A stretch of 64,000 nt of DNA, from contig OZ024875.1 of assembly GCA_964017185.1 (NCBI GenBank), positions 26,917,456 to 26,981,455 on the forward strand. Direction: 5' to 3'. Positions 8,546 through 49,411 of the stretch are shown piece by piece (position 1 is the stretch's first letter; the number at the start of each line of letters is the position of its first letter). Below the pieces are notes generated by a model, which searched no databases, was not told the origin of the DNA, and worked only from the letters and a program-made list of their open reading frames with translations. The DNA is from Rugalucina vietnamica (lineage: Eukaryota > Mollusca > Bivalvia > Lucinida > Lucinidae). The position numbers and the translations under genes are program-made.

Positions 8546-8734
8546 GGAATCAGGACAACTCGCCCCAAGACAACTCGTCCCACTTTAGAAGACATCTCGC
8601 CCCACTTTAGAAGACAACACAACTCGTCCCACTTTTGAAGACAAATTAATCTCAACACCTTTGAAGACAACTCGCCTTACTTTAGAAGAGAGTTTGTCCC
8701 ACTGTCTTAAACCGTCCTTCCTACCCCTCAGAAT

Positions 8735-9975
8735 CAGAATCAGAATCAGAATAGTTTACTGGTGAAACGTCAAACTGACAATACTACACCAGGGGGGATG
8801 GGGCTTGACCGGAGGGGATTAGTCCCGAGCTCTCACAAGAGAAGTAAATTTAGACACACAATCATCTGACAATTCAGCAGAGGAGATCAGAGAATCAGGG
8901 AGTTCATTCCAATCTCTAATGGTCTGGGGGAAGAAACTGTGTAAATAGGCATTTGTACTTGCTGAAGGTATCTGAAATGCCAAGGAGTGTTGATTCCTAC
9001 AACGCCTATTTTTGGGGACAAGGTCATCCGTGGGTATTTTTGCTCTCCCTTTTAGACCTTTGTAAAGTAATATAATTCTATTATCCTTCCTTCTTTTCTG
9101 CAGGGATTCCCATTTTAGTTTTTTAAGGATGCCAGTCATACTACCTTTTTCATATGTATAGTTCCTAGTTACAAACCTAGCCGCACGCTTTTGCACCTTC
9201 TCCAAATCATCTATCAAACCTTCATAATGAGGGTCCCAAACTGAGCTACCATATTCAAGAATAGGTCTCACCAGACCTTTATAGGCAGCTTCTCTCACAT
9301 CTTGGGGGCAAGAAAACAGATTTCGTCTAAAAAAACCAAGGGTCCTATTGGCTTTGGTACACACATTGCTGATGTGAGTATTCCATTTTAAATCCTTAGT
9401 TATTGTGACACCAAGATATTTGATACTCTCAACATTTTCCAACACAGTACCCTCAAGCTTGTAAGAAGCCTGAATTTTACTAGTACGTTTATTTGTCAGC
9501 TGCATCATGTTGCACTTGACAGGTTGAAATCTCATACCCCATTTCCTGGCCCAACTACCTAATCGATCAATATCCTTCTAAAGTTTCACTGTATCCTCCA
9601 CATTCTTAATTTCACGATAACAAACACAATCATCAGCAAAGAGTCTGATTTCCGATTCAATATCTGAGGTGATATCATTTATATGCAACGAAAACAACAA
9701 GGGGCCAAGAACGGTGCCCTGTGGGACACCAGATACAACAGGAGCCCAGTCTGATTTAACGCCATTAACCACAACTATTTGTTGTCTATAGCAAAGGAAG
9801 GCATCAATCCATTTAATTGTCTTCCCACCAATTCCATAACTGAACAATTTGCTTTTAAGGAGTTCATGCGGAGGAGTGTCAAAAGCTTTTTCGAAATCCA
9901 AGATAAATGTGTCAACCTGACCTTGATTGTCTAAGATTTTTGCCCAGTCCTCTTTATGCCATGGTTCCTCTCTGT
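8735..9975 (-). mobile_element. CR1/Jockey-like LINE, 5'-truncated copy 2
   Basis: Minus-strand frames 9901-9578 and 9535-8819 encode the palm and C-terminal parts of a reverse transcriptase: DFEKAFDTPPHELL, VSGVPQGTVLGPLLF, LFADDCVCY, then ESIKYLGVTITKDLKW and a terminal FFPQTIRDWNELP. One frameshift separates them at about 9578. The 3' end carries a short (TTCTGA)n-type tail at about 8726-8752, usual for target-primed LINE insertion. The endonuclease is absent (5' truncation). It lies within the element at 8546-11029, so it inserted after that element. Confidence 0.9.
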
Positions 9976-10137
9976 CTAGAAGTCAACTCAGCTCATTCCC
10001 CAATTTTTAAATAGTAAAACTGCTGTGTACATTTTTCTATCATTTTTATCAAAAACATAGATTGTTCAATGCAATGTATTGAATAGAAATACCCCCCCCC
10101 CCCCCAAAAAAAAAAAAAAAAAAAATCAAAAGTTTTC

Positions 10138-10215
10138 TACTGAATTTTCTTCGTCCCGACATGACTGAAAAATGTTGACAGTGACGTTAAAACTCATAAC
10201 AAACAAACAAGCCTT
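10138..10215 (+). repeat. SINE 3' tail fragment
   Basis: The segment matches the 3' part of the SINE at 45386-45607: CGTCCCGACATGACTGAAAA, then GTGACGTTAAAACTC and an A/C-rich ACAAACAAACAA tail. The tRNA-like head is missing. Confidence 0.65.
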
Positions 10216-10651
10216 AACTGAAATTTTCCTGCTGAAAATGTTCAATGTTTATTGCATGGACAAGTTTTCATAATGCAAAACAGGTCGACTACAATTTCAC
10301 GAAAACAATTAGGATTTATTTAAAATATCAAACACAATATGGTTTTAAGTAATTTAATGGTGGAATCTTTATATTTTAGTGTTTTAATGATTTATCTTTA
10401 ATAGTTCATATCTTACTGTTTTTAAATAATGGGGAAAAAGAAAATGTTTTAATTGTATATACTGTGCCAAGAATGTATCGGTCAGACAACATGCAGTCCA
10501 GTGTGATGGGTGTGGGGAGTGGCAGTACCGATAATGCAACACGAGTAATGACCGTTTTATCACTTTATTTAGACTCCTTTCTATTTCTATAATGCACTAG
10601 TCATTTGTAACCACGGCCCTCAACACCGTTGAATCAAAGCCACCCACCCAA

Positions 10652-10796
10652 CACCTGGTAAGAGTTGCATAACGCGAGCGCTACGTAGCGCTTTGTTGCT
10701 TGTATGCGTCTGCACAAAATGACGTCATCGTGACTTCGGGAGCCATCTACAAAGCGCTACGTAGCGCTCGCGTTATGAAACACTTACCTGAGGTGA
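10652..10796. repeat. 145-bp palindromic MITE
   Basis: Two ~46-bp arms are inverted complements, running from CACCTGGTAAG through CGCGAGCGCTACGTAGCGC to CTTTG and back. AGCGCTACGTAGCGCT is itself a perfect palindrome. About 50 bp of spacer separates the arms. It is followed by the GATCAGAAATTGATCGACTC segment also found beside two other LINE copies. Confidence 0.75.
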
Positions 10797-11104
10797 TGAT
10801 CAGAAATTGATCGACTCAGTATCTGAAGAAGAAGAAACAAAAACAAAACAAAAAAAAGCCAAAAGCCCCACCCTGCGGGAACTGCGGGACAAGCAGATTC
10901 AGGGGCGAGTTGTCTTCTAAAGTGGGGCGAGTTGTCTTCTGAACGTGGGGCCAGTTGTCTTGGGGCGAGTTTTATGTGGGACGAGTTGTCTTGGGGCGAG
11001 TTGTATTTGGGGCGAGTTGTCTGTAATTCAAAACTGTCACCTTTGACTCTTTTCAAAGTTATCGTTCTTGAGAACCGAGGCGCGGACTGGCGCAGGGGTA
11101 GAGT

Positions 11105-11260
11105 GGTCGGTCACAAGACGTTTCGCCCCCAAGACGTTTCCCCCCTAGTCGTTTCCCCCTAGTCGTTTCGCCTCTAATTTCCACCCTAGTCGTTTCGCCC
11201 CTCATACCCTAGATGTTTCGCCCCAAATACCATTTCCCCCCTAGTCGTTTCGCCCCCAAT
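11105..11260. repeat. single-arm array of GACGTTTCGCCCC words
   Basis: About eight degenerate copies of (A/T)GACGTTTCGCCCCC and CTAGTCGTTTCGCCCC run in one orientation. The layout resembles one terminal arm of the foldback-like elements in this window. No inverted partner is visible inside the window. Confidence 0.7.
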
Positions 11261-15150: not shown

Positions 15151-15539
15151 TTGGCAAAAATGCCAACGCACTACTTTTAAAATTTGAATAACTTCACTTC
15201 CATCGAAGATTTGTCTCTTAAGCATTTACATACACCTACTAAGTTATTTCACACAAATTTGCTCTAGGAATCACGCAATAAGTAAATCATGAAAAACATG
15301 TTTTCTGCACGTGCTCCTTGTGGTATGTATCTTTTTCTCATTCTGACACTTTTATTGGAAGCCCGGTTATGGTTACGGGACATTTCGCGCAAAAACCAGT
15401 TCCTCCCTGGGACGATTCGACCGGGACGATTCGCGCAAAAAATCGAACGGGACGGTTCGCGCAAAAAAAACTGGGACGATTCGCTCAAAATCAGAGGTCG
15501 ATTCACCCATTTTTGTAATATATATATAATAAGTGTTTT

Positions 15540-16257
15540 GCTTTGCAAATGAGCATGATTTCAATCTCTCTCTACGCTTGTGAATGTGGGAAGCGATTCA
15601 ACACTGTGCCACATATTTGTTGATTATTATATAAATTTGTTATGAAAGGTCATTGTTTTCGATGCGTGAGCAAAAATCATGCATACACACGGGTGTGAAT
15701 TCGTCTTCTTTTTTTATTATTATTTTTTTTTTATTTTTTTATTTATTTTTTTTTTTTTTATTTTTTTTTTTAAGAAAAAAAAAATACATGTGTTGTGTGT
15801 TCAAAAAGATGCAAAAGACCACAGCAGGTCCTGAGTTGGGATTGAGGTGGGGGATGGCAACACCGTGGATGCGAGTAAGTTCAGTTTTAATTTTCGTGTT
15901 GTGTCTTTGAGCAAGCATATTTCAATTGAAATAGTGATTGGGATGTTACTCAAACAAACAAATTAGTCGACGTTTGTAGTGATTGTTTTGATTTGTATGT
16001 GAGCTTTAACGTATGTAATTAAATTATTGGCATCATTAAAAATAAACATGTCAGATGTTTGACGTTCTCTTTGTTAAATTAAATTGTTTTGCTCACAATG
16101 GTGATATGCGTTAACATCTATTTTGTTTACTCGTTTGATCACAAAACAGCTAGTGGCCAATTCAAAATTAACGACATAATAATTAATACAACTATCGTCA
16201 TTACACCCGTTTTAATAAATATTATATATATTTATATTTATATTTATATTTATATTT

Positions 16258-16301
<44 letters not shown>

Positions 16302-16689
16302 TCATCAGGAATCACAAACCACATGTATAAAAAAAATAAAAAAAAAATAAATGAAAAAAAAAAAAGCATTTGTGATTTATGCAATACGGAGGCCGAGAAT
16401 GAAACAGAGATTAGTGCACCCCCCCCCCAGTGCCCCCCCCCACCCGAACGTGCTTGCATGTTCCATTTTTAATTCTAATTATAAATTTCGTATTTATTAC
16501 CAATCTTCAATTTCAAAACAGCAAAACAACGACTTGTTACTTTATACACGGGTATATTATAATGTACGTGTATATGCACACTCCATCATGGGTATGACAT
16601 AAACGAAACAGTTACATGGATGGAAAACTGAATAAAAAATAAAGAGTTGTATACATACTCGTATTTGGAAAACTCGTGTTTTATCATAT
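15540..16689. repeat. low-complexity region: T-rich tract, (TTTATA)n, (TTTC)n
   Basis: There is no gene. T-rich tracts occur at about 15708-15772. A (TTTATA)n run at about 16225-16256 passes directly into (TTTC)n at 16256-16304. Homopolymeric A and C runs follow near 16326-16442. Confidence 0.85.
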
Positions 16690-17404
16690 GTAGGAATAGT
16701 TTTGATAGTATCTCAGATTGGATACTATGCAGATATAAAGTGTGTGCCAAATAACGTGATAAAAGAAATCGAGAGTCTATTTTGCAATTTTCTATGGAAT
16801 AATAAACAGCCACTAGTAAATAGGAAAACTATGTATCTTAACCGCAACGAAGGTAGCGTTAAACTGCTGAACTTAAGGGACTTTATCGACTCAAAGCATA
16901 TACACTTTATGTATAAGATTATCTCATCTAATTATGATAACTGGAATATTATTGGTAAACACTGGCTCAAATGCCTAGATTCAGAATACAACTTGAACGT
17001 TGATTATTTCATTTGTAAATGTACCAGTATCAAAGGTCTTTCCAATACGTATTCTATAGAGACAATATTAATATAGCATGTGTTAAATTTAAGAGTATTT
17101 TATCTCTTAAAGACAAAAAGCATCTTAGATTCTCTCCTGCTTAACGCATCGAAATACACCTGTCTTTATAAGTTCCTTTAGTAAATGTAATATTAAAACG
17201 ACCAGGGACTTTGTGGGACAGACATGGAAACGAATACTTTTGTATCACAAGATATAGCTTGACCACGAAAAATTGGCGGTGTTATGGATATATTGTTTGT
17301 CAACATACAGCTCTTTATAGTTCGCCGTCTATCATAGGTGTTTTCCAATCCATTCACCGATTATTTACGGCATGTTATTGGCATGTTGTTCTTAAAAAAT
17401 ATTG

Positions 17405-17510
17405 TAGAAAGGAATTGGCTCAGTAGGTAGAGGAGCAGGCTAAGTTCATTAGGATGAAAAGATCGTTTTGACGCGAAGGAGACAACCCCGGTTTGAATCC
17501 CATCAAAGAC
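17405..17510 (+). repeat. tRNA-like SINE head
   Basis: TTGGCTCAGTAGGTAG resembles box A and GGTTTGAATCCC box B, about 65 bp apart, longer than in a real tRNA. A T-rich tail follows to 17598. This fits a tRNA-derived SINE inserted in the LINE. Confidence 0.5.
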
Positions 17511-17556
17511 ATTTTTATTGTTTTATAAGAGAGCTCTTCTTTATCTTCATTTGTTT

Positions 17557-17559
<3 letters not shown>

Positions 17560-17598
<39 letters not shown>
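17560..17598. repeat. poly(T) tract
   Basis: About 39 consecutive T bases lie downstream of the tRNA-like segment. This may be a retroposon tail or transcription-terminator-like tract. Confidence 0.9.
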
Positions 17599-17600
<2 letters not shown>

Positions 17601-17926
17601 TTCTTTTTTAATTCTTTTTTATATTATTAATATCATTATTATTATAGACGGAATATTTCCATCGGTATTCCGTTAGACCTCTCCATAACTGTAACGAGAG
17701 AGGAGCGAGGTCACGAAGTGTATCGGAGTGCAGGTTAGCCAGCTGATCTATTATTATTATTAAACAACGACTCATGTGAGATGCGAAAAAAATTTAGATT
17801 AACATGTAAACCACGAATTGCATGAAAATATGAGTGATGTTCAGACAATGGCGCGAAAAAAATATAAAAATTAAATAAAAAAAAATAAAATAAAATAAAA
17901 AAATCATAGAAAAAAAAACTCTAACG

Positions 17927-17998
17927 GGATTCGAACCAGCGACTGGCGTATCCTACGTCCTGCAGACTAACCATTACACCAAATTCTATTGCAGAAGC
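17927..17998 (-). repeat. degenerate tRNA-like sequence
   Basis: Read on the minus strand it has TTGGTGTAATGGTTAGTCTG (box A-like) and CTGGTTCGAATCCCG (box B). The T stem has a mismatch and the acceptor stem does not pair well, so it is a pseudo-tRNA or SINE head rather than a functional gene. Confidence 0.5.
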
Positions 17999-18579
17999 TT
18001 CCAATAAAATGAGAGTGCTTCACAAATTCAATAGTTGTCTCTATAGAGACCCTGTTAATACGCACGCTGAATTCCGTATACGTCATTAAATTTATAAATG
18101 CACATATTTACCAAACACCCAGCCATTTTATATTGGTCAAGCTATAGATGGATTTGTCATTTTTGCAAATCAAATTTGGAAACAATAGCACATCTATTTT
18201 TTTACTGTAGAAGAATTAATTGGATATGTTTTGAAATAGGACAAAAATTGAATCGTTTGCTAGCAGAAGACTCCAAGTCTGCAATTAAAATCGCTCCACA
18301 CCAATTCATTCTTGGGTATTTGCACGAAAACAAGACTGTCAGGGTTTTGGTTAATCTGATCATCGTACTGGTTAAATGGGAAATCTGGAAAATTAGAAAT
18401 GGCATAAAATTTGATAATAAACAAGTCGGCAACAACTTTATTTTGGAACATGTAATACAGAAAATAAAATCAGTTATAAGATTTCTTGAAGGCACTAATA
18501 TTGCGCGCAAATACCAAAACGAGATAAAATTATGGAAAATGTTAGATTGAAAAGTCTTAAGAAATACTGCATTTATATA

Positions 18580-19260
18580 CTGAACAAAAAAAGAAACGCA
18601 ACAATAGGCCACCGAGGATTTTCGAGTTTAAGGGTAAAACGTTGATAATTTCAGGTCTGTTGCTGTATGATTCCCATTCATGGGATATTAGGCTATGTCA
18701 TGCAAGAAACTGATTTTCATTTCGATAAAAATTGAATGAGAAATTTGTGTCGTCTTAAATTATGCAAATTGTGACAGATATGCTCTGCGCATGCGCACAC
18801 TTTTGTAACACCAAATCACCAAGAAACAATGGCAGCTGCTCCCTAATTAAAATTCATGAAAAAGAAATAAAGTTCAACGACACAGAAGCTTGCAATTAAA
18901 ACCATCAAAATCCCTATATGTTTAATTGAAAGGGGGGTAATATCAATTTTATTCGTTTTATTTCTTTAACGTGTGAGTTATCTGCTGAGTGGTAAATTGT
19001 GATTTTGAATGCGGGTTAAAAGCGGATTTAAATCGTACCATTATTTTAATGCTCGCGCATGCGCACTGTGTGGTTTTCCACTTTCAGCATGCCCATGGTG
19101 GGCACTAAATAACTCCGTAAATACGCATCAAAATGAAAATTGATTTCTTGCATTCGGAAGCCTGATATCAAATGCAGAAGTAGAAAATGTAATGGTTTCT
19201 GATTGTATCAAAGTTTGCTCAAAATTTAGTGAAATATAATTGTTGCGTTTCTTTTTTCAT
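18580..19260. mobile_element. 680-bp TIR element (AAAGAAACGCAACA ends)
   Basis: The left end has AAAAAAAGAAACGCAACAAT and the right end ATTGTTGCGTTTCTTTTTT. Further in, TGCAAGAAACTGATTTTCAT pairs with ATGAAAATTGATTTCTTGCA, and GCGCATGCGCAC occurs in both halves. The element is therefore a degenerate foldback without coding sequence. Confidence 0.7.
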
Positions 19261-20495
19261 TTTCGTCTTAATAGAAGGTTTAATAATTTAGTGAAAGACT
19301 TTATTTTGATTAACAAATAATTATTTTTTCTAAATTAAGCATGGTGGGCGAAATATGTGATTTCCGATACGAGACCTAGATATGACTTTTTTAAAAGTGG
19401 CAATGTTGAAATTATTATTTGAATTTGATTTTGTTACATAATGTGCGCAAGAAATTATGTCAGTTCAAGGGCAGCTAACTCTGTCGACATATGACGTTAG
19501 ACTTACGTTTGAATCCGGCGTCATTTCGACGTCATATCAATACGTCCACTGACGTCAGGACTGGACGTCAGGTGGACGTTGATTATTGGTTTTATTATAT
19601 ACCTACCAAAAATAACCATTGATACTACCCATTTTCCGAGACAAAAATACGGAATCTTGTATCACCACACTGTCCTGATACGATTCCGTATCACCATCCT
19701 CCATTTTTTACCCTACAATATAAAACCCAGCACCTAAAGCCGGCATCTAAATCTGAATGACAACCAGAGTAATTTCTATTTTAATTTATAAAACAACAAC
19801 TGTTTCAGAAGTTAAAGAGGTTCGCTTGTCATCAAAGCAACATAATTAACAAAAAAATAACGACTTTTCTAGCTTTGACGTAAGAACTGGCACAATGTTA
19901 CGTCATCAAAGATTTGACGCAACGTCGTATGGTACGTCGTCATAATGTCGCAAATTTACGATTTGAATTCTTGTGGCTGATTACTTTTGTAGGTATAAAA
20001 TAAACGCGTTATTACTTCAGTAACTTGATCTGATGGGTCGGATCACGTCTCGTAGCTGCGCCTGGAAAGACCGGATCACGCTCGTCTCCGACTAGCATGA
20101 TCTGGTCTTTCCTGGCGCAGCTACTCGACGTGATCCGACCCATCAGATCAAGTTACTGAAGTAATAATGAGTATGTATGACGTCGTGACCAAAATACAAC
20201 CAATATCCGACGTCAAGTTGACGTCAGATGCCTGCTGGGGACGCGTTTTTCGTATATGTCGTCAGAGTTAGCTGCCCTTAAACTGACATAATTTCTTACA
20301 CATATTATGTAATAATATCAAATTCAAATAATAATTTCAACCTTGCCACTTAAAAGTCATATCTGAGTCTCGTATGGGAAATCCCATATTTCGCCCTCAT
20401 GCTTAATTAATGTAGAAAAAAATGATTATTTATTAATCAAAATAAAGTCTTTCACTAAATTATCAAACTTTCAATTAAGATGAAAATAAAATTTG
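19253..20495. mobile_element. foldback element with ~245-bp arms
   Basis: The left arm (about 19253-19505) and right arm (about 20245-20495) are inverted complements, including GTGAAAGACTTTATTTTGAT, TTGAATTTGATTTTG and AGGGCAGCTAACTCTG. The ~740-bp centre carries GACGTC-rich words and a second, tighter hairpin at 20009-20167. No reading frame of note is present. Confidence 0.75.
20009..20167. repeat. near-perfect 159-bp hairpin
   Basis: TTATTACTTCAGTAACTTGA at the left pairs with TCAAGTTACTGAAGTAATAA at the right. Pairing continues through CTGATGGGTCGGATCACGTC and GCTGCGCC-GGAAAGACC. The loop is only a few tens of bases. It is nested at the centre of the larger foldback element. Confidence 0.85.
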
Positions 20496-20889
20496 TATAT
20501 TTTAATATTTATTTCACCATTTTGAATAATTGTTTGTTCAGAATAATCTTATTTCTCACACTAATGTCTTATTGGTTTTAGCACCATAAAAGAAATAAAA
20601 TTTTGCTTAAATAAGATGTATCAACATCAGGCTGAATTAATATCTTGAACATTGTGTATGTCCCGAAAAACTCTATCAAAGGAGTGAAACCTAAAACCTC
20701 CTTCCGGTTGAGCCTTCGGGTGCTCCCGGAACAACAAACCCACAAAAAACAACCTCCTATAGTTCTGGTCTCGCCTAGGAAAAAAAAAGAAAAAAAGGAG
20801 TGAAAGGGACTATCAAAAGTGCATCACTGCTCTTCTGAATCCACTGTTATTCAAAAATGCGAAAAAATATACACCTTAAACTATTTATA

Positions 20890-21675
20890 TGACATTAATT
20901 CAAACGTCGGTTTTAGGACGTCAGATTGACGTCAGCTTTCAGACGTTAAACCGACGTTGGCTTTAGCACGTCAGACTGACGTCTAGTTTTGACAACAAAC
21001 AAACTTTCAAAATCAACCTTACTCCAACGTTATTATGACGTTGGAGTCTGACGTCAAACTGACGTCCAACGGACGTCAAATGTCTGCTGGAAGTAACATA
21101 GAAAAAAAGAAAAAAGAAAGAAAGAAAGCAAAAGAAACACACGAAACGAATGATCTGATTTTTACCCAAAGTGAAGTTTCATTAATTTGCACACCACACA
21201 TGGTCAGAAGTATGAAAAACACAAGGTCTCAATCACGTCTTGATTACGACGTCTAACTGACGAACTAGTTGGACGTCAAAACAACGTCCAATCCAGACGT
21301 CCAAAAGACGTCAGGAACTGACGTCCAACGGACGTCAAATGTCTGCTGGAAGTAACATAGAAAAAAAGAAAAAAGAAAGAAAGGAAGCAAAAGAAACACA
21401 CGAAACGAATGATCTGATTTTTACCCAAAGTGAAGTTTCATTAATTTGCACACCACACATGGTCAGAAGTATGAAAAACACAAGGTCTAAATCACGTCTT
21501 GATTACGACGTCTAAGTGACGAACTAGTTGGACGTCAAAACAACGTCCAATCCAGACGTCCAAAAGACGTCAGGAAATGACGTCTGATAGACGTTGGAAA
21601 TTGGTTATATGACGTCGCGACCAAAATATAACCAATATCTGACGTCGAACAGACGTCAGGTGCCTGCTGGGTAAG
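20890..21675. repeat. GACGTC-rich repeats with a 259-bp tandem duplication
   Basis: Words such as GACGTCAGATTGACGTC and AACGGACGTCAAATGTCTGC recur about every 15-30 bp. A 259-bp unit starting at 21061 is repeated almost exactly from 21320. It carries an A-rich AAAGAAAG stretch and ends in the same GACGTC words. The right end, TGACGTC…CAGGTGCCTGCTGGG, resembles the end near 20225-20240. The palindromic hexamer is the common core. Confidence 0.85.
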
Positions 21676-21714
21676 AACACGTAATCATCGATTACCGATA
21701 GAAACAGGAGGGTG

Positions 21715-22185
21715 GAAAAAATAGCTCATCAGAGGAGAAGCAATTTATGCAAAACTGAAATTGGAGATGAGTTTCATTATGTACTAGTTTGTCGGGAATT
21801 AGAAAATATTAGAAAACAATATTTACGAAGGCATTTTTATGTTCGACCGAATACGCTAAAATTTTCTGAACTATTCAATTGTAAGAATACCACCACATTA
21901 AGAAATTTGTGTGCATTTATAAGCGACATATTTACAATTGTAAAAAATCAATAACTATCCATGGTAACAGAATTTCTTAGGTAAGTTTATGTTTAGCATC
22001 TTTTGAAATGTAAACATTGTATCTATGTTTACTGAGTAATGTTTTGTATTTAGAAAGTATCACATGGCTATTTACTCTGAACCTCTGTATGATATTATGT
22101 AAGATGTTGTCTTTATATGTTTACCTCATATTGCCATTGTAATAATGGACTGAGAGAAATAAAGGTTTGACTTGACTTTGACTTG
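21715..22185 (+). mobile_element. LINE 3' end (same type as 27402-30228)
   Basis: The frame 21712-21954 encodes a C-terminal zinc-knuckle region (NLCKTEIGDEFHYVLVCREL, then RRHFYVRPNTLKFSELF) close to the C-terminus of the LINE ORF at 27402-30228. A ~200-bp 3' UTR follows, then a TTGACTTGACTTTGACTTG tail, as expected for a LINE 3' end. The rest of the element is missing. Confidence 0.8.
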
Positions 22186-22574
22186 AAGTCATTTTGTGAA
22201 AAAGAGGTCACACAGGAAGAAATTCATAAAGTAATTAAGTTGTTAAAGTCTAATAAGTCTCCGGGCGATGATGAGATAATTGCTGAATTTTATCAAACAT
22301 ACTGCTATCTTATACTTGATGAATTAACACTTGTTATTAAATATGCACTTGAAAATGACTCCTTAAGCAACAGTCAATATAACGCAATTATAACTCTTTA
22401 TATAAAAAGGGAAATACGGAAGAAATCACAAACTGGAGGCCCATTTCTTTATTAAATAATGACTTTAAAATAATCACAAAAATTCTTGCTGAGAGACTGA
22501 AACTGTTTTTGACCAAACTTATCCACACTGATCAAAAAGGATTTGTTAAAAGTAGAAATATTTCCGAAGCAAAA

Positions 22575-22823
22575 AGGTTCAAGTAGGCAAAGATCTGGAA
22601 AAGGCGCAATCAGAAAAAAGATTCCCACTCCAAAAACTGACGTGGGAAAAAAAACTAACAATCAGGTACTTATACCATGAAAACATTTCGTAAGCCGAAT
22701 GAGCAGCTATTTTCCCAATAGGTGGCCACTCAGTTACCTCCACTTAACTAAAATATGAAAACATACATAAGGCGCCAACAGCACAAACATATTTTAAACA
22801 CCAAGACATAAAACAAAAAGAAA
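22575..22823 (+). repeat. GTAGGCAAAGATC dispersed repeat, copy A (inserted in LINE)
   Basis: This is a ~250-bp unit with TTCAAGTAGGCAAAGATC, GAAAAGGCGCAATCAG, AGCCGAATGAGCAGC and AACACCAAGACATAAAAC. It interrupts the LINE reading frame between the codons for SRNISEA and RFIQDVIEYAEQ and is flanked by short A runs, so the insertion is clear-cut. Other copies: 45625-45950, 60163-60490 and a reversed fragment at 53130-53185. Confidence 0.85.
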
Positions 22824-23179
22824 AACCGTTTCATACAAGATGTTATTGAATATGCTGAACAAAGAAATACGCCCGGTTCTATTATTTTTATCGATTATAT
22901 GAAAGTCTTTGACCAGGTGGAATGGGAGTGGACGCTGAAATGCTTAGAAACTTTTAACTTTGGACATAAATTTAGATCTTGGATAAAAATGATATTTAAA
23001 AATGCCAAAACATGTATACTGACGAATGGTTTCAGATCTATCTCGTTCAATGCGGCAATGCTGTCCGATCAGGCCGCTGTTATATATTCTACAAGCTGAA
23101 CCGTTGGCATGTGCGATATATAATACGAAAAAGTGACGGCATAATTGGAAAAGGTCCCTCAGGACCGATCCACAGTGTT

Positions 23180-23890
23180 TACTTTGAATATGAAGAAAAT
23201 TGTACCCATGATCGACTGCTCTCCCTCAATTACGCGTTTTGTCACATAAAGCGCTTACTAAAAACTAGTGAACCCGTCTATAGGGACTAGACAGTTCACC
23301 ACAATCAATTTAATTTATCAATTGTTGACACTCCCCGTCAAATAGCGGTAAATATCTAGCAAGCAATCTCGATCGTGGTGACTGCTTATCATAGCGCATC
23401 TAGGATTACATCGTATATACCCTGACGAGGGGTTCAGAAACTACAGAAACTCTATATGGCTTACTTTTAGTCCATCACATCGCACTATGGGTCTGTTTCT
23501 GGTAGTGTGGCTGCAGGTCAAAATTCAGAACTCTGTCACAAATTGACTGCACTGCAAAATGGTTTTCTACAAATCGACATATTGATTGTAATCGTGCTCC
23601 CTTTAGTATCGGCTTTGATTCCATAACATCAAAAATTTTGTCATTGCCTTAAGCAACAGATACACACACTGGCCAAGCTTCAGTACAAGAAACGACATTC
23701 ATGTATGGGAAACGAAACTGAAATGTATGAGAATCGAAATTTAATACGGACCAGAGAATCAACAACACTGAAATTTAGAGCAAAAGGGAATATCTCTTAT
23801 AACAAACGGCTGCTGACCTTTTCATTGGTTTCTTTTTAAGAAGCCAACTTGTCGAAATACCTCTACCATATATTAACCCTAATACTGGTA
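23180..23890. other. unrecognised insertion inside LINE
   Basis: No similarity to the surrounding RT sequence and no gene is recognised. A short near-palindrome, GTCTATAGGGACTAGACAG, lies at its left. Confidence 0.4.
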
Positions 23891-24572
23891 AACAAGTAGA
23901 GGCTTAAAGTGTTTCGTGTGTGGGTGATTCCCAATTTTTCAACAATTCTGAAGAATCTATTGTCGAGACATTTAAAATAACAGAAAAGTTTGAAAAGGCG
24001 TGTGGGGCAAAAATACATAAACATAAAACTGTCGGTTTATATATAGGAGCGTGGAAAAATGAAAACCCTGTTTTTACAGATATATCATGGACAAAAACAA
24101 ATGTCAAGACTCAAAACATTAGTACATCTTCATTGTTTCATGGCTAGCCTTGATAAATTATTGGACCCCCACACATGTGTAATATTATTTAAATATTTAA
24201 TAAAAGATATAAATCTTTTAATAATATGGATTTTTTGTTCCTTCTTTTAAAGAAAATGTTGAAATTATCACTGAAAAATACATTTGCGCGAACAGTCCCA
24301 TGGGTGAATCGTCCCCTTAATTTTGGAAAAAAAAATAAGAAGAAAACATATTGCTCAGAAAAATCAAAGATAAAAAATATATTTCCAATATGTCCATAAT
24401 TAGTTTTACATATCCATTGCATTTAATTGATAAATTTTGATAAATAAAACCTTGAAATCAATTTTTGGAAAAATGCGCGAATCGTCCCGGGAGGAAACGT
24501 CCCGTTCGAAATTTTTTTTTTGCGCGAACCGTCCCGGGAGGAACTGGTTTTTGCGCGAAACGTCCCGGAGCC

Positions 24573-26110: not shown

Positions 26111-26155
26111 TTCTAAATTAGAATACAATCCAGATAATCATCTCAATTATAGAAG

Positions 26156-26246
26156 ATTGGTGTTGACAGGTTGACAAATAACTAAGATTGGTGTTAACAG
26201 GTTGACAAATAACTAAGATTAGTGTTGACAGGTTGACAAATAACTA
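26156..26246. repeat. 31-bp tandem repeat, three copies
   Basis: AAGATTGGTGTTGACAGGTT followed by GACAAATAACT is repeated three times with one or two substitutions per copy. Confidence 0.9.
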
Positions 26247-37880: not shown

Positions 37881-40800
37881 GTAGGTCGCAGTCAAGACAA
37901 ACATTGCTGGCATTTGTACTTATTTCGTTTTGTTTTACAATCTTATACCTTAAATCCCCTGTCATTTTACCCATGAACATTCCCATAGACAACAGAGCGT
38001 TTGCAGTATCCTATACGACGGGTTCTACATTGATGGCCGACTCTTCGATAAAGGATACCAGAACAGAAGCTATAAGTGTTATAAGAATAAAAGAGATAAA
38101 ACACTATAAAGATAATGAGCTAAACATGGGAAATTATATTGCCAATTTAACGAAAACAGGGGCGGGTAGAATGACAAAAGCTGGTGAAAGTTCACAGTCC
38201 AGGCTTCCATACAACAATGGCGACAAAGGTCCGAGCTATTGTGGTGTTTCCTATTCGGCTTCAATGGATCTGCTTTCAACGGTAGGTTATGCACTAAGAT
38301 CAGTAACAATAAACATAACCACACCTTATAGAGACGCAGAAAAGGGCAAAATATAAACAATTGAATGACGTGCATCCGATTTCGTGTTGCCCATTTAAAA
38401 GACGTATCCTACTCTGTCAAGGTATTTTTGTTTAGGACATACATTGTCTACGATGTCCTATTGAGATAATGCAGCTCTGAACACTTTCAAAAAGGAATCA
38501 TTTCTTTTGGCTTTCAAAATCGTGACTGATTAAAAAGTCAACAAGTTTGGTTGCGCATCAGATATGCGTCTTTCGTTTTCGCGTTAGGACATAATTAAAA
38601 AAAAAAAAGCCTCGGAGCATTTCGTGGCATTTTTATTTTATTTTTATTCAATATATTTATTCCTCTTATCATGTCTATATGAGACAAATTGTCTTACTTT
38701 AACGATTTTAATTCATTTCCGAGTCGAGATAGTATTTCTTATAATTTGTTCTTCTGATTCAGCTGTACACTGGAAGGATAGTATTTCAACATATGTTGCC
38801 AATGGAAACATTTTAAAGTGTATCTGATACTTTTACCATCAAGAATAATTCGATTTATACACGCAGTCGATCAAAACGTTCCAGCAAGGCACCGGCCATG
38901 ATTCGGGAAAGTAATAGCAAAACTTTTACCGGATTTGACATTTTTACTGCTGCAGCAGTTTCTCTTTTTGCATGTTGTACAACTAACTATTACATATAAG
39001 ATTGTCTTCTCCTGCGAGGTTATTACCCATAGTATGAAATAATGGCATGCTCTGCTCGTACACACCATTATTCATAAATATGCTTCTATAAAGAATACCG
39101 AAACCGCGGTATGGCCCATCTCTTTTCTCCTTAATATGCTCACTGCTCTTAAAGGATCTCAGTTTTATTTTTATTTGCTATTACTGCAGCTGGTGTTTTG
39201 CCGTGTGGCGGCCCTAAAAAGCCTCCCCGTACACCATCCATAGTGCAGATAATATTTTCCTTTTGGTAGTTTGAGATCAGCGTGTGTATTCTGAGAAATC
39301 AGAAATTCATTAACGGTTTAGATTCACTTTCTAACCAACGTTAAATATATTTGGCTCTGTTTGGACAACACTACGATATGGCCCATCTCTTTTCTCATTA
39401 ATATGCTCACTGCTTTTAAGCGATCGCAGTTTTATTTTTATACTTAACTACACTTCCAAAGCTATCGATATTTGTTTTTGCTATAATTTCAAAATTACTC
39501 AAGATATTGAAATGAAAATTGCAGGGACGATCGAAAAATTCATCAGACATGTATTGAAGGCAAAATGATGCCAGCAGACTTTCATAAAGAAACGCCCCGG
39601 GCGTTTGGACACACCACACCTCATTTTCAAAAGTCACAAAAACGAGTGTAGGACAAAACACCCCACGGACAAAACACCCCACGTCCATTTTGGTATATGT
39701 GGACAAAAACCACCACATATTTTTTGAAGGCTGACAAAACACCCCACGCCCAATAGTATAACGTGGACAAAACACCCCATGCAGATTTTAAAATCAGGAC
39801 AAAACCCCCCTCATGTTTTTCTTAGTTCCCCATATAACATGACTGAAAATTGATGGCTGGAATATTTAGCCCTAATCAAAACTTATCCTTTTTTTATCAA
39901 AGATGATAATGAATGTCTTATAGCTCACCATATAACATGACTGATGCACGACGACGCGGCGTCTCACTGTAAAGCTTCTGCAAGTCAAAAGAGCTAACTA
40001 TTTAGCCATCCAAATTACCGACCTTAATCAAATCGATTATATCTGTCCCATATTTGGGACATTATCAGCTGTGTAGGAAGGAGACAGTACCCTGCTAATG
40101 TTATACAATTTTAACAATTTGTATGGTATGGGTGAAAGGGTATAGCGCAGCAGCGTACTTGTATGCGGTACGCCAGTGCTTCGATGCGTAGTTGTTGGCT
40201 AGCTGTCATTCGAGTAAATGGCGGCCTTAAGTACTAGGTAATTTGATCGGATCAGATGAGTATTTTAGTTTGAAATTTTACTTTTAATTGTTTTATTTGT
40301 TGTTTTGTTTTTCTTCTTTCTTCATGAATAAAAGATACAAAAAGAAATACAGTATGGCAATAAAATATTGTAGGTTTATTGCTGAAATGATGTTTTGTTT
40401 AATCCTTCAAGTTTTTCGACTTTTGAAAATGAAGTGCAGTTTGTCTAAACACCCGATGTGTTTATTGATAAAGGTTCGCTGGCATGATTTTGCCTTCAGT
40501 ATATGTCTCATGAAGTTTTCTATCGTCTATGCAATTTTCATTTAAATATCTTAAGTAGTTTTGACAATATAGCAAAAACTCTATCGGTAGCGTTGGAAGT
40601 GTTGTTAAGTATATTTCTCTTTGGCTCCATTTTGCCAAATCTAAAGGGTCATCAAAGAGGCTTCAGTAGCCGAAACCGCGTGGCGGCCCTAAAACGTATC
40701 CCTATTATCCATAGTGCAGATTATATTTTCCTTTCGGTACTTTGAGATCAGCGAGGATATTCTGAGAAATCAGAAAATTATTATTGATTTAGATTAGCGA

Positions 40801-43800: not shown

Positions 43801-46800
43801 ACTACATAACACCATACTATCGAACGAGTACATTTATATTAAAGATTTTAAGATGACTTATTATTAATGTGGCTCAATGTTCTGTCGTCCATATAGATTG
43901 TGGTCAGATTTTCTCTACCAATCCACCTCAAGAGCACTGATGACGGCCGAGAGTTTCCATGAAGTTGTGGTTAAAGCTATAAAACTTTATCAGGATTGCT
44001 TCAATAAACGTTCTATACTCAGTTGTGTCTACGATAGAAAACTGTACATCCTGTCAACGGTATGTAATACGCTCAGGTAACGTTTACTGAGAGGTGAAAA
44101 TATAGATTGATTTCCGAACAAAAGCAAAAGCTTTGCTGTGCAAATACACAAGACAAACGATAAAGAGTGACTTCCTACCCATGTCACATGTAGAGATGGT
44201 GATTGCATATGTCGTGGTTTAGTCAACAGATGTCCCGTGATACATATTAATTCTACATACAGTGCGATGCATACTAATAAGGCTGTAACAGCTCTTATAT
44301 TACACAGCTGAGAAACACGTGGTATTGGTTGCATACAAACAGATCAATGATCGGGTGACGCACAATGAAATTCTGTTCAAAGTTGAGCTGAGAAATTCGA
44401 GTTTTCTACTATAACGTTTACTCAATTGACTGATAGATAGGTGCAGTCAATGCAGAAATTGAGCATTTATTGAATTAAAGTAACATAATGAATCCAGGTT
44501 ACTTCGTTTTTGCAAACACTTCCGCCCCATGATTTTATAGTACTTCCAATTTATAGTACTTCCAATACTGTAACATTGAAGTGTTTGCGAAAACGAAATA
44601 ACCGGGATTTCTTATGTTATTTTCTTTCAATAAATGTTCAATTTCTGTATTGACTGCACCTATCTATCCGTCACTAGAAGAAACGCTGTAGGAGAAAACT
44701 CGAAAATCTAACCTCAACTGCGTTCTCATTGTAGTGTGTGTAACCCGATCATTTATCCGTTTGTATATAAACAATACCACGTGATTGTCAATATTGTATT
44801 ATCAAGGTATCTACCTCTAGATACTAATAGTAAAATAATTGTATAATATGTATACAATTATAATTGTAAAATTTATTTTAACATGAAAATCATTCCCTTA
44901 TGATTGAAGGCATTAGTTCCCATCTTTTCTGCTTTGAAGCCTTTCGGTTTCATAAACTACCTTTATATAGAAAGTGCGTATCTTAGAGGTAAACATCACT
45001 TTGTGTTCACGGACTTGTGGCAATCCCTATGCCAGAATATATCAAGCCCAACACTCATGTGTCCAAATATTGCCTCTCTATGGTTTTCTGCCAAATCCAC
45101 ACATCTAAGGAATTTCACAAATACTCCCTTTTCCTCCTTGTCATTATGCAGTGGAATGCCCTCCCAGAGTATGTGGAATGGTTGCCAACCCTTAATGCCT
45201 TCATTGAAGCAGTTTGCAACCGGTACCACTCAAGGCCATAGATCCTAACATGGTGTTTTGAATTGACTTTAATCCTCTTCTTTTATGTCCACTTTTAACT
45301 TTTCATCTTTTATCACCTCACTATCTCACCTTGCACCTTTTAACCTTTTAAATCATCATATTTATTTCAGCACTGACAACGCACACTTGTTTATTATGTT
45401 TGTGTTTGTGTTGAGGCTTAACGTCACAGTCAACAATTTTTCAGTCATGTCGGGACGGAGCCAAGGCTTCCTGGGTTTTATCCAGTACTGTAGGGAATCG
45501 ATGTGTCTTGCTCAAGGACACAGCACGATGACACCTATGGGGATCGAACCCAGGGCCTCCCGATTAGTAACCCAGTCCGACGCTCTACCACTACGCCACA
45601 GCACTCCCTTACACTTGTAAAGAAAGAAAAAGGTACAAGTAGGCAAAGATCAGGAAAAGGCGCAATCAGAAAAAGATTCCCTGACTCCAAAAACCGAGGT
45701 GGGAAAAACCGAACTAACAATCAGGCACTTTATACCATGAAACATATCGTAAGCCGAATGAGCAGCTATTTTCAAAATAGGTGGCCACTCAGTTACCTTA
45801 ACTTAACTAAAAATATGAAAACATACATAAAGCGCCAACAGCACAAAAAATTTTAAACACCAAGACATAAAACAAAAAGAACAGAAGTATCGACTTGGAA
45901 CGATCAGTAACACAAAGTTACTGGCGGGCTTAAACCGGTTTTACAGGTACCTATCTGTTATCTTTTTGCAGACAAATACAAATCCGAGCATTATTGCTTT
46001 AGATGAATGGGCATGTCCACAGTTTTTCCAAACAAATGTAAGTAAAATTGGAAAATATTCAGTACTGCGACGCGATAAACGTAATAATACAAGAATGAAA
46101 TGATCTGAAAATACAACCACAGAACCTATGGTCCTGTAAACGCTCATCTGAGATCTGGGACAAATACCACTAAACTTGTTTGACTATTATTGTCATATAC
46201 ATGCATATAGTCAAAAGACAGGGTCAATTTTATATTCAGAGGCATAAATATTTTGTCCATTTCCCAATTTACTTGAAGTTTTTCCCTTCAATGACATTTT
46301 AACTTTAGAATCACGAAAGGGTTGGAGACAATGTAATTTTACATCGTGCAAATGTGATCATTGTAGAGGACAATATTTTGGCTCCTAGTCAATTCGTACT
46401 CAAATCAATTCGTACTCATTTTGGTCAATTTGACTCAAAAATTTGGTCAATTCGTACTCATTTGGTCAATTCGTACTCATGTGATCAATTCGTACTCATG
46501 TTGCGGTCATTTCGTACTCATTTTGGTCGATACGTGCTCATTTTGGCCAATTAGTACTCATGTCGAAATGAGAACAAACTGACCAAAACTTCCTAAAACT
46601 CATGATGAGTACGAATTGACTAAATGAGTTTTAGGAAGGGGCTTATGTTTTTTTATTGCATACATCGAACGATTTTGTTTTAAATTTTATTGTCTTTGAG
46701 ATCAGATTAGGTATAATAGATTATAAGCACAATTTACATTTCCTTTTTGTATAAAACGTATTTAAATATAACTTATTAAATATAACTTTTTTTTCTTTTT

Positions 46801-47524
46801 TTTATTTGTCTTTTTTCTGATTTTGTTTAAAACACTTGATTTTTATCTATGTTGCACCAAAACATTACTCGCCAATTACAATTCTGCATGAATTATTGTC
46901 AAATTTAAGTTATAATAAGTTTATCTCAAATTAAACCACAAGTTTCTTATGAATTTAAGCTGACACATTTCCACGTTTACAAGGCATAAATTTGGATTTA
47001 CGTTCTTTAGATTTCACGTTATGCTTTAGTATAATTTGCACATAAACGCAGTGAACTGTAACAATTTACGTTGCATTAAACTTACGCGAAGTATATTTGA
47101 AATACGATTACAACGCAAACTCACAAAAATTCAATTAAATGTGAAATTTAATTAAGTTTTGTGTGGATATTATGGCAGATTAAACGCGTTTTTATGCAAT
47201 GCATTGACCATTGAAAAACTTAAGGCAATTGCAACAGTAATAGTTTCTTTTGCACCGTGTTTTGGCACATAGATTGATTGTTTGCAGACCTCTTTCAATA
47301 CAATAGATGGCATGCGCCACAATCGTTATTGATGTCCAAATTATTGTTCATCAAAGAAACACGACATTTTGATTTTTGATGATGCGGTTAAATAAAAATC
47401 GGAGTTAAGAACGTCAAGAGCGGTTGAAATGAAAATAAGATAAAAAATAATAATAAACATTCATTCATTCATTCATTCATTCATTCATTCATTCACACGA
47501 AATAAGCCACAGAAACGAATACAC

Positions 47525-47619
<95 letters not shown>

Positions 47620-49411
47620 GAAATCATTCTACTGATATCTAGATTCTTAGCAAATCCTGTATTGTTGTGCCAGCTAACGGAAAGTGGTTTGATAAGTGTA
47701 CTTATCTTTAGCACCATGCGCGGATCCAGAAATTTTCATGAGAGGGGGTCCAACGAAAATGGTAATTTTTGGTCACAGACTAGGGGGGGGGGGGGTCCAA
47801 CCCCCCCCCCCCAAAAAAAAAAATCCCAAAATTACTTTTTTTTTAGGTAAAATTTTCAAATTCCAAGGTGGTCCGGACCCCCGGTCCCCCCCCTCTGGAT
47901 CCGCGCATGAGCCCGCTTGAATTTGCGACAAGAAGTTTGTAAAAATGATATGATTTATATGAATACGAGTTGACCATTATGAAAACTAATTGACCAAAAT
48001 GTGTGAGAGTTGACTAAATTTGGTAAGATGAGTACGAATTGACCAAAATTGAGTACAAATTGACCAAATTGAGTACGAATTGACTTGAGTACGAATTGAC
48101 TCCATACCCTATATTTTATGGTATGTAAGTGACCCCTGTCCAAACCGGCAGCAATGTCAAAGTGTCAAAATGATAGTTTGGGCCTGAAACTTGTTTATAT
48201 AAAGATTTTAAACAATATTTTCAGCCATTTTTAATGTTTTCGTTAAAATTCATTTAATCAGTTAGCACGTCGACTAATTCTTACCTTATTTTTTGCAGAG
48301 TTGATGATGTCTTAATGTATTTGTAATCTGACCCATGTTGACAAAAGTTCGAATCGAAAACACCCACGTCAAAATCCAGGTCGTTCAGTTCAGTTTAAGA
48401 ATTCTTCGGTATTTATTATATGCATTAGGTTTTGAGGTGTTTACTTAATTTACAATATATATTTTATACCTAATTGACTTAAACGAACACTATTTGCAGG
48501 TTCATTTACGGCTGGGACTATATTCCGTGTTTATAAAGGAATATCTTGAAGTGTTTTCCAGAGATCAGATACACGTGGTTCGTCTTGAAGATTTTTCTGA
48601 TAACATGAAAGACAATCTACAAGACATATTTGACTTTTTGGGACTTGGTAAGTCAGTTCTATCATTTCGAATTTTAAGGGAAAATATCCACCCAATCAGT
48701 CCAGGTCCATGACAAAAAATATCTTGACTGCTTCCATCGATGTCTGCATTTTGGTATGCGTATAACTACCAGTGAGCAAATTAATACATTGGTTCTTTAC
48801 ACAGATGTTCCGTTTGACAAAAATGATACGATGTATTGAGTACAAAGAAGAAATAAAACATCGACTTTGTTTTATTCAGCCATATAAGATTTTCCTTGTA
48901 TGAAAGAAGCCATCATAAACAATTTAACAATAGTATAATGAAAACCTACGCCAGGATCAATAACCTTGAAACTGGTGTGAACAACGCTCTATGAAGTTAC
49001 CGTTCAAGAGAACGATAATAATTTTGGCTGTAAATACGGTCGCAAGAATGCAAATTTTGGTCAAAAACGTGGTCGTTGGTCGCTTAATCCAATGATAAAT
49101 TATAGTGAAAAATCGTCGGGAGGAATTGAAACTGGTCGTTAAACGTAGGTGGTCGCTCAATTCAAGTGGTCGTTCGCGGAATTTTTACTGTACATTCAGA
49201 AAGAAATATTTCTTTTTCAGAGCGATTATCAGACCAGAAGATGGACAAAATAACTAAAATGGACAGAAGTAACACTAAAGGGCCTGGAAAAGAGGCCATA
49301 GGGAGCATGAAAGATGAAACTAGGAAACTTCTCTATGAGTTTTACAAACCATTTAATGAAGAGCTAGCGCGTCTTCTACATGACCAGCGATTCAATTTTG
49401 GCATCAGATAG
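37881..49411 (+). CDS. carbohydrate sulfotransferase 15-like, 6 exons seen (incomplete)
   Basis: Golgi type II membrane sulfotransferases of the CHST15 (GalNAc4S-6ST) type move sulfate from PAPS to glycosaminoglycan sugars. Exons, all with AG/GT borders: 37881-38281, 42758-42880, 43183-43339, 43897-44059, 48500-48647 and 49221-49411 (TAG stop). Phases agree from exon 2 onward. Exon 1 gives a short basic stretch and one membrane anchor (LLAFVLISFCFTILYL), then an unrelated stem. Exons 2-3 give GDSSATYIFDNDFW and the 3'-phosphate-binding block KIIVSVRNPIER. Exon 4 continues LWSDFLYQ...FHEVV. Exon 5 has LRLGLYSVFIKEYLEVFSRD and VVRLEDFSDN. Exon 6 ends LLYEFYKPFNEELARLLHD. The exon carrying the 5'-PAPS motif should lie between 38281 and 42758, and the phase of exon 2 needs one, but I cannot find it. 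Exon 1 may belong to the gene only by position. Confidence 0.8.
39060..42240. repeat. ~380-bp degenerate repeat units in sulfotransferase intron
   Basis: Units share GTATGGCCCATCCCCTTTCT, CTTAAAGGATCTCAGTTTTA, GCTATTACTGCAGCTGGTGT, CTCCCCGTACA.CATCCATAG and GAGATCAGCGAGGATATTCT in this order. The cores at 41515 and 41893 are 378 bp apart; more degenerate units lie at about 39210 and 40680. Related fragments occur at 32-33.5 kb and 36.3-36.6 kb, so the family is both locally tandem and dispersed. Confidence 0.75.
39640..39835. repeat. single-arm array of GGACAAAACACCCCAC words
   Basis: Seven or so copies of (T)GGACAAAACACCCCACG occur in one orientation with variable spacers. The design is like the arms of the foldback-like elements; no inverted partner is visible. 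Confidence 0.75.
42457..42490. repeat. (ATT)n microsatellite
   Basis: A short run of ATT trinucleotides, about nine units. Confidence 0.9.
43256..43732 (+). repeat. six-copy ~78-bp array from the 3'-PAPS-motif exon end
   Basis: Copy 1 is the true 3' end of sulfotransferase exon 3 with its donor (GT at 43340). Five degenerate copies follow, with donor-like GT at 43418, 43496, 43577, 43646 and 43721 (spacings 78, 78, 81, 69, 75). Each keeps TGTCAGAAACCCC and AGAAAGGTAAACG or close variants, and several keep the preceding CATCTA(C/T)C.TCT block. Later copies carry stops or indels, for example TAG in copy 2, so only copy 1 is usable coding sequence. Confidence 0.85.
44316..44783. mobile_element. 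468-bp foldback (palindromic) element
   Basis: The left end CACGTGGTATTG pairs with the right end CAATACCACGTG. Pairing continues with interruptions through GATCAATGATCGGGT, GAAATTCGAGTTTTCTAC, GGTGCAGTCAATGCAGAAAT and GCAAACACTT. The arms are about 210 bp with a short centre holding a TTATAGTACTTCCAAT duplication. It lies in a sulfotransferase intron. Confidence 0.85.
44960..45245 (+). mobile_element. LINE ORF2 C-terminal relic
   Basis: The frame 45017-45241 ends with FHKYSLFLLVIMQWNALPEY and VEWLPTLNAFIEAV. This matches the FFPRTI..WN.LP block that closes CR1/Jockey-type proteins, as in the copies at 1234-1512 and 8819-9535. No upstream RT is present. Confidence 0.6.
45386..45607 (-). mobile_element. 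tRNA-headed SINE
   Basis: Read on the minus strand it begins GGGAGTGCTGTGGCGTAGTG (box A in GGCGTAGTGGTAGAGCG). Box B is GGTTCGATCCCC, then a body CTTGAGCAAGACACATCGAT and CTTGGCTCCGTCCCGACATG. The 3' end is GTGACGTTAAGCC with an ACAAACACAAAC tail. This is the complete head-body-tail layout of a SINE. Tail fragments recur at 10138-10215 and 26845-26885. Confidence 0.85.
45625..45950 (+). repeat. GTAGGCAAAGATC dispersed repeat, copy B
   Basis: This is the longest copy of the family: AGGTACAAGTAGGCAAAGAT at the left and GTTACTGGCGGGCTTAAACC with a GGTTTTACAGGTAC end at the right, longer than copy A by about 80 bp. It adjoins the SINE head. Neither a TIR nor box A/B is obvious, so the class is open. 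Confidence 0.8.
47458..47620. repeat. microsatellites (ATTC)n and (ATCT)n
   Basis: (ATTC)n at about 47458-47494 is followed after ~30 bp by a pure (ATCT)n tract at about 47526-47619. Confidence 0.95.
47714..47910. mobile_element. MITE with GCGCGGATCCAG ends
   Basis: CCATGCGCGGATCCAGAAAT at the left and CTCTGGATCCGCGCATG at the right are inverted complements. The interior has G-run and C-run blocks that also pair. It is non-coding and nested inside the element at 46380-48110. Confidence 0.75.

Follow-up and report, generated by a model that had tools for sequence, protein, structure and literature searches.

Transposase-free foldback-like elements in a stretch of the Rugalucina vietnamica genome and their probable membership in FLYWCH-MULE families

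In a stretch of 64,000 nucleotides from the bivalve Rugalucina vietnamica (contig OZ024875.1, positions 26,917,456 to 26,981,455; hereafter the window), four elements (W1 to W4) and two single arms (W5 and W6) are bounded by arrays of short tandem words. With a probability of roughly 0.8, we regard the window elements as copies without a transposase that derive from several diverged families of cut-and-paste elements with foldback-like ends, namely Mutator-like elements (MULEs) of the Phantom/Tm1 type whose transposases combine a FLYWCH finger with a MULE domain. This kind of element is already known from Tm1 and Muta, and the closest known kind is a Phantom-type Mutator element, above all the nematode Tm1. 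What is added here is a set of families residing together in one genome, with base-exact ends, a fixed register of the words and two different tips.

Tandem Repeats Finder (TRF) and an inverted-repeat finder retrieved the tandem words of W1 to W6 and the inverted arms of the elements (Table 1). For the core GWCNNYTCG, 50 occurrences were counted in the window compared to 11.9 ± 3.5 in 100 dinucleotide shuffles (maximum 20); arms account for 38 of the 50, with no contribution from the W6 arm. An earlier note on the window, made from its letters, had delimited the four elements, and copies elsewhere in the genome together with target-site duplications (TSDs) bear out these boundaries to within 1–2 bases. 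Duplications are present at all four elements as the note had claimed, and their lengths are revised from 8, 9, 9–11 and at least 7 bp to 8, 10, 8 and 9 bp for W1 to W4, the last one (CAATATTTT/CTATATTTT) with one mismatch. In W3, the ninth base formerly counted as duplication is part of the element end; its tip was set to 8 bp, since exact TSDs appeared with a tip of 8 bp but not with one of 7 bp, and longer tips were also compared for W2. The word grammar that the note had seen in common among the arms can be tightened: in all six families, an 8-bp tip is directly followed by the first word, which starts with GAC or GTC. In most families the word goes on with NN-(T/C)TC(G/A), and W6 (GACAAAACA) retains only the start. 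The two tips of one element differ wherever both ends are known.

Ordinary minisatellite arrays scattered by other elements, with inverted pairs and TSDs arising by coincidence, would agree with the variable copy number of tandem arrays and with the occurrence of W5 and W6 as single arms in the window. This explanation is at odds with the pairing of the ends: when the first 100 listed ends per family were considered, convergent neighbours at most 10 kb apart carried opposite tip types in 38/38 cases for W2 and in 31/31 cases for W3, with two (W2) and three (W3) non-convergent neighbours within 10 kb left out. The copies were treated as independent in this count and share descent; because they are related in this way, the counts show that mixed ends are kept and do not represent independent events. 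In copies of W1 and W4 with both tips intact, the tips are likewise paired as GGAATCAG with GAATTACA and as GGTACGGA with GGTTCCCG, respectively, or as close variants.

The TSDs speak against minisatellites as well. Nine copies each of W2 and W3 were sampled from the 38 and 31 perfect-end pairs, a choice that favours intact copies (a tenth W2 pair was left out, its sequence being too short), and 17 of the 18 have an exact TSD of 8–10 bp at the tips, compared to 0 of 306 combinations in which left and right flanks were swapped between copies. The W2 duplications measure 9, 10, 9, 8, 9, 9, 8 and 9 bp, all exact, plus one of 9 bp with a mismatch; those of W3 measure 8 bp in seven copies and 9 bp in two. 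Among ten W1 copies analysed by script, five have exact duplications of 8 bp and two have duplications with one or two mismatches; the remaining three comprise two copies with altered left tips (an exact 8-bp match and a match with two mismatches by eye) and one copy without TSD. For W4, two of seven copies have an exact TSD, two have one mismatch, and of the other three one matches by eye in 7/8 bases. Duplications of loci L018, L019, L022, L045 and L049 and of the altered-tip W1 and W4 copies L063, L065 and L083 were read by eye. Finally, the W3 element at locus L038 interrupts an open reading frame (ORF) with a Helitron_like_N domain and is flanked by a TSD of 9 bp; when its flanks are joined over one copy of GTAAAAGAC, a single open frame of 63 codons runs through the site. 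This empty site is a reconstruction from coding sequence rather than an allele seen as such. The minisatellite explanation is already contradicted by the duplications and the open frame, and we consider it practically negligible.

The affiliation with MULEs rests on the proteins encoded between such ends. A profile search of the genome listed 59 places with a MULE domain (PF10551), and the surroundings of 49 of them were examined (3.3 kb for 30 and 10 kb for 19). None of the listed MULE and FLYWCH places falls into the window, which agrees with the statement of the earlier note that the transposase is not encoded there. Inverted word arrays surround the MULE domain at six loci with domains that are alike (L018, L019, L022, L038, L039 and L049), and also at L040, L041 and L045, which are MULEs of a different kind. 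Each word-array locus has 5–12 inverted k-mers with 0–3 per locus in the reversed control (3 in L049); the 1–3 inverted k-mers each found in L028, L034, L037, L042, L043 and L046 were taken as simple sequence. L038, L039 and L049 bear exactly the ends of W3, and perfect W3 ends bound three MULE-containing copies (C2:46932506-46936852, C3:70960137-70963425 and C3:70979391-70983701). The transposase partners that the earlier note had proposed to look for are MULE-type for W3, whereas the listed places include no partner for W1, W2, W4 or W5.

The ORF of L038 contains a FLYWCH finger (E value 6.3e-11) and a MULE domain (E value 5.8e-7) between the W3 arms. Two further families, W7 (L018/L019) and W8 (L022), were found by their protein regardless of the words and have the same architecture and similar words: at L018, FLYWCH (7.7e-12) and MULE (1.8e-11) domains occur with arms and a TSD of 9 bp (8 bp at L019, both by eye), and at L022 a MULE exon with a FLYWCH exon just upstream occurs with arms and a TSD of 8 bp (by eye). 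A MULE domain is therefore located between the ends of W3, W7 and W8, and an N-terminal FLYWCH finger was found for these three families and at a locus with a W6-like arm. The DDE residues and the C..H motif were identified by inspection for W3, W7 and W8: two aspartates and the C..H are invariant in an alignment of four proteins, and the glutamate is assigned to the LEGWH motif of the C-terminal ORFs by analogy with Muta1. In a tree of 35 MULE domains from this genome only, those of W3, W7, W8 and L013 form a clade with a support of 100/99; 14 of the 49 domains were left out (13 shorter than 88 amino acids, plus L004), and the tree program warned that L013 is on a long branch and its placement unsure. 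From the protein side, nine chosen slices of 451 bases upstream of FLYWCH-end matches were inspected. Words are visible in six of them: two are W3-like, one GACACTTCGTC-like, one GACACTTGATCGAA-like and one W6-like, and one has a single GACATTTGGTC plus its inverse.

Two observations on these loci may be added. At L038 and L039, which are separated by about 19 kb on contig C3, the same Helitron gene carries the same W3 insertion, and both copies probably stem from one insertion followed by segmental duplication. L041 and L045, the MULEs of another kind, have word arrays (CCGGATCGGA) at both ends, and L045 has an 8-bp TSD (TTGATGAG) and differing tips (by eye), so that such unequal tips may also exist outside the FLYWCH clade.

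Comparison with known elements, based on those passages of the published sources that treat them, leads to the same group. Tm1 of Meloidogyne has asymmetric 7-bp end motifs, CGGTTAA and CCTACCC, followed by GGA and then by tandem words of 13–15 bp (CGATTCAGTATCCGC); it creates a TSD of 9 bp, encodes a FLYWCH finger and a MULE transposase and was assigned to the Phantom subclass (PMC3169594). Written end to end, its printed motifs CGGTTAAG GACGATTC correspond to an 8-bp tip plus the first GAC, near W2 (GGTTACGG GACGTTTCGCGC, inner GGGACGATTCGCGC). In the printed Tm1 consensus, however, GA would precede the first word only, and the inner words therefore lack the GAC seen in the words described here. 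Tm1 was moreover described as one family, whereas six families with different words and TSDs of 8–10 bp are represented in the window of this one genome. Muta of Aedes aegypti has TSDs of 8–9 bp, a FLYWCH finger in 13 of 14 families, subterminal tandem repeats of 9–15 bp in 10 of 12 families with long terminal inverted repeats and numerous non-autonomous copies whose interiors are unrelated; Muta1, which is classed as a type 2 foldback element, transposes in yeast (PMC5225508). The families described here resemble Muta in TSD length, FLYWCH finger, subterminal tandem repeats and the many non-autonomous copies, and differ from it in the terminal motif, which has 10 bp in Muta1 and 8 bp in Muta5 (PMC5225508). 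Members of the Phantom family of MULEs occur in animal hosts, have TSDs of 8–10 bp where given and, in some cases, a FLYWCH finger (PMC6446971); they share TSD, finger and animal host with the present families, which are assigned here by their domains and architecture. Galileo and the foldback (FB) elements of Drosophila also have long inverted ends with internal repeats (PMC3169594; PMC3688188; PMC3573991), but Galileo encodes a P-type transposase (PMC3169594), whereas the partner proteins found here are MULEs.

For W1, W2, W4 and W5, membership in this group was judged from the ends. A matrix was trained on six transposase-linked words (those of W3, W7, W8, L088, L089 and L092) and applied to eight ends of W1, W2, W4, W5 and W6, with the genome-wide forms used for W2 and W4. 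The best score was obtained at offset 8, i.e. directly behind the tip, in 8/8 ends, with at most 22 of 20000 permutations scoring as high, while three ends of other MULEs do not fit the matrix (7181 and 11336 of 20000 for L041 and 8522 for L032). With rotation and strand left free, leave-one-out counts for the training words were 0 (W3), 1 (W7), 144 (W8), 0 (L088), 0 (L089) and 9 (L092) of 20000; the W7 word differs between the two tests, and both forms occur in L018. From the end grammar, the register and the TSDs (the latter not for W5), we infer that W1, W2, W4 and W5 are members of the FLYWCH-MULE group. The common ancestry proposed in the earlier note is supported in part, namely as several diverged Mutator-like families with TSDs of 8–10 bp and one end grammar.

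Several results weigh against this affiliation. With rotation and strand left free, 44 (W1), 3396 (W2), 1772 (W4), 1509 (W5) and 1716 (W6) of 20000 permutations scored as high as the window words, compared to 2741–9120 for controls consisting of three words of other MULEs and two other window arrays. The matrix test that the earlier note had suggested thus favours the five families in a fixed register, and because only W1 clearly exceeds the permutations under free rotation, the support depends on that register; the likeness of the words alone is modest for W2, W4, W5 and W6, where the argument rests on their constant spacing from the tip. Furthermore, the earlier reader had picked the window words for their likeness, and the permutation counts are in this respect not selection-free. 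Nor does the published Tm1 word conform to the matrix: 1758 of 20000 permutations reach its score, and its best match is on the other strand and not at the GAC. When the genome was first searched for two W1 words in immediate succession, one match was obtained. Three of the nine slices upstream of FLYWCH exons have no words, and the exact core is present in only three. Within listed elements of W1, W2, W4 and W5, no MULE or FLYWCH partner was found: no MULE, FLYWCH or Phantom-like match is located within 10 kb of 40 listed W1 arrays (a part of W1); near the listed ends of W2 (likewise a part) the same radius contains one MULE match, L047, outside the element, and near those of W4 one MULE place, 5.2 kb outside the arms of a pair. 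For the listed part of the W5 ends, two weak candidate matches lie within 10 kb, a Phantom-like match 3 kb inside the end at C1:77474094 and a W8-like match of 30 residues 4.5 kb inside the end at C3:40995396; both could be due to chance. Around 40 listed W6 ends (a part of W6), there is no MULE, FLYWCH or Phantom-like match within 10 kb, and PF10551 is not among the listed domains at the W6-like locus.

These results would fit a convergent origin, in which word-array ends arose separately, unrelated transposases such as a Galileo-like P-type enzyme move W1, W2, W4 and W5, and the likeness of their words is due to chance. Foldback-like ends have been described for elements with P as well as with MULE transposases (PMC3169594, in the part considered here), other MULEs of this genome (L032, L040 and L041) have word arrays of other kinds, and four of the five window words are not clearly above the permutations under free rotation, in addition to the missing partners. 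Convergence does not account for the fact that the same 8-bp register, the GAC/GTC start, the TSD range and the differing tips recur in the transposase-linked families, or that the W1 word is nearly identical to the word of W8, a family with both the FLYWCH and the MULE domain. We therefore consider convergence rather unlikely and prefer the assignment to the FLYWCH-MULE group.

For W6, a weaker link to FLYWCH and Phantom-like exons is suggested by one locus. There, an arm of the W6-like word GGACAAAACACCCC adjoins a FLYWCH exon and, downstream, a transposase-like exon; the latter, interrupted by one stop, has 33% identity to the L022 protein in the C-terminal region that follows its MULE domain. 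About 430 bp upstream of the FLYWCH exon, the inner part of the window's W6 arm finds a counterpart that agrees in 40 of 42 columns.

As to the mechanism, the words would serve the FLYWCH finger as repeated binding sites, while cleavage at the tip and staggered target cuts of 8–10 bp would be the task of the DDE domain. The window copies would be moved in trans by transposases of the matching family, as would copies that are deleted or resemble miniature inverted-repeat transposable elements. Binding and cutting are here transferred from the named families; ends, TSDs and domains were observed directly. Alternatively, the words might be read by a host or satellite protein and the transposase might recognise the 8-bp tips alone. 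Retention of two distinct 8-bp tips in the families indicates that the tips carry information of their own, in favour of this alternative; it is opposed by the W1 copy L063, in which the left tip is shortened and a TSD of 8 bp can nonetheless be read by eye, and by the foldback element Galileo, for which the title of PMC3688188 announces multiple sites in the long inverted repeats that the THAP domain of the transposase binds. Recognition of the tips alone hence appears unlikely, and reading of the words by the transposase is preferred.

Tentatively, and at less than even odds, the layout may be generalised to an end code: two differing 8-bp tips, a constant register and a GAC/GTC-starting word, mostly GAC-NN-TTCG, with families being split by word and FLYWCH finger changing together. 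If this is true, one genome holds many co-resident transposases, each reading its own word only, and the outermost part of the layout is common to the nematode Tm1. The question of recognition becomes testable in the form of whether FLYWCH fingers and words change together, and a simple annotation rule results for elements that searches for interior similarity may miss. In the literature passages on these elements, we met no statement of a fixed-register word rule, the searches not having been aimed at the rule by name; the part of PMC13359780 considered contains no mention of tandem, foldback, Phantom or FLYWCH.

Table 1 Elements, arms and target-site duplications (TSDs) of the six word-array families, in positions of the window
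Feature	Position	Strand	Word or sequence	Remarks
W1 element	8546..11029	.	GACAACTCGCCCCA	Without recognised transposase; tips GGAATCAG and GAATTACA
W1 left arm	8546..8700	+		TRF, inverted repeats
W1 right arm	10902..11029	-		TRF, inverted repeats
W1 left TSD	8538..8545	+	AAAACTGT	8 bp exact, directly outside tip
W1 right TSD	11030..11037	+	AAAACTGT	8 bp exact, directly outside tip
W5 single arm	11109..11255	+	GACGTTTCGCCCC	Tip GGTCACAA then GACGTTTCG
W2 element	15371..24572	.	GGGACGATTCGCGCAAAA	Tips GGTTACGG and GGCTCCGG
W2 left arm	15371..15512	+		TRF, inverted repeats
W2 right arm	24477..24572	-		Inverted repeats
W2 left TSD	15361..15370	+	GCCCGGTTAT	10 bp exact
W2 right TSD	24573..24582	+	GCCCGGTTAT	10 bp exact
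W3 element	25263..30263	.	GACACTTCGCCGAAAA	Tips CGGTGCAC and GGGTCCGT; TSD TAATAAAA, 8 bp exact
W3 left arm	25263..25362	+		TRF
W3 right arm, inner part	25771..25842	-		Severed by insertion; TRF, start by eye
W3 right arm, outer part	30229..30263	-		Inverted repeats
W6 single arm	39644..39817	+	GGACAAAACACCCCAC	Tip GAGTGTAG then GACAAAAC
W4 element	46380..48108	.	GTCAATTCGTACTCA	Without recognised transposase; tips GGCTCCTA and GGTATGGA
W4 left arm	46380..46620	+		TRF
W4 right arm	47958..48108	-		TRF

All families for which a pattern was counted are repeated in the genome. Exact double words occur 667 times for W1 and 105 times for W4; patterns with some open letters, a degenerate 20-base pattern in the case of W2, gave 231 ends for W2 and 227 for W3, and with at most one mismatch 220 ends were obtained for W5. 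The reversed pattern gave 0 in each of the five families.

Two of the window elements appear to be enlarged. Paired copies of W2 have lengths of 929–6791 bp (median 1757), and the window copy is probably enlarged by nested insertions. Its interior is rich in GACGTC-type words at 19255-21665; nested inverted repeats occupy 19255-20491 and a tandem repeat of 259 bp occupies 21050-21584 of this stretch, which may be another nested foldback-like element. L047 was considered as an autonomous W2 copy and rejected, its MULE ORF lying beyond the arms. In W3, the two parts of the right arm are separated by an ORF (27402-30314, 970 amino acids from stop to stop) with an RVT_1 domain (E value 3.4e-40). 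Because 21 of 31 W3 pairs with perfect ends measure 585–628 bp (median of all pairs 615 bp), the window copy is read as a short element which probably carries an insertion resembling the reverse transcriptase of a long interspersed nuclear element (LINE) in its right arm, and not as a natural 5-kb element. A pair of W4 ends elsewhere in the genome (G000, C9:58469372-58488976) is 19.6 kb apart and has a duplication matching in 7/8 positions (by eye); it may represent either an exceptionally long element or one that nested insertions have expanded.

The outer limits of the single arms were derived from scored matches, the self-match being excluded. For W5 (652 candidates), homology starts at 11109 in 21 of 39 matches, at 11108 in another 11 and outward of these positions in the remaining 7. 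The only downstream inverted match of GGGCGAAACG with at most one mismatch lies in the W2 arm, and a second W5 end was not found there. The possibility that W5 is the head of a short interspersed nuclear element was rejected: no tRNA was detected, one Rfam match is far below the gathering score, and homology mostly starts at the 8-bp tip. For W6 (806 candidates), homology starts at 39643-39644 in 12 of 39, at 39651 in 15 and further out in 12 matches. As 15 matches begin inside the tip and 12 at the tip, W6 would have two tip types, so that tandem words in inverted ends with differing tips would extend to this family, too.

Further repeats and ORFs were noted in the window. On the minus strand, ORFs at 1691-3978 and 8819-9982, the second of which lies inside W1, resemble (by eye) LINE endonuclease/reverse-transcriptase stretches. 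A short array of 11-bp words around ACGTCC (ACCACGTCCTA, CTACGTCCTCA) is located at 33613-33774, a 454-bp tandem repeat with 3.4 copies (90 percent), which is preceded by CCGTCGTCCG words, at 34794-36311, and a 288-bp unit in about two tandem copies that are 97 percent alike at 54979-55529.

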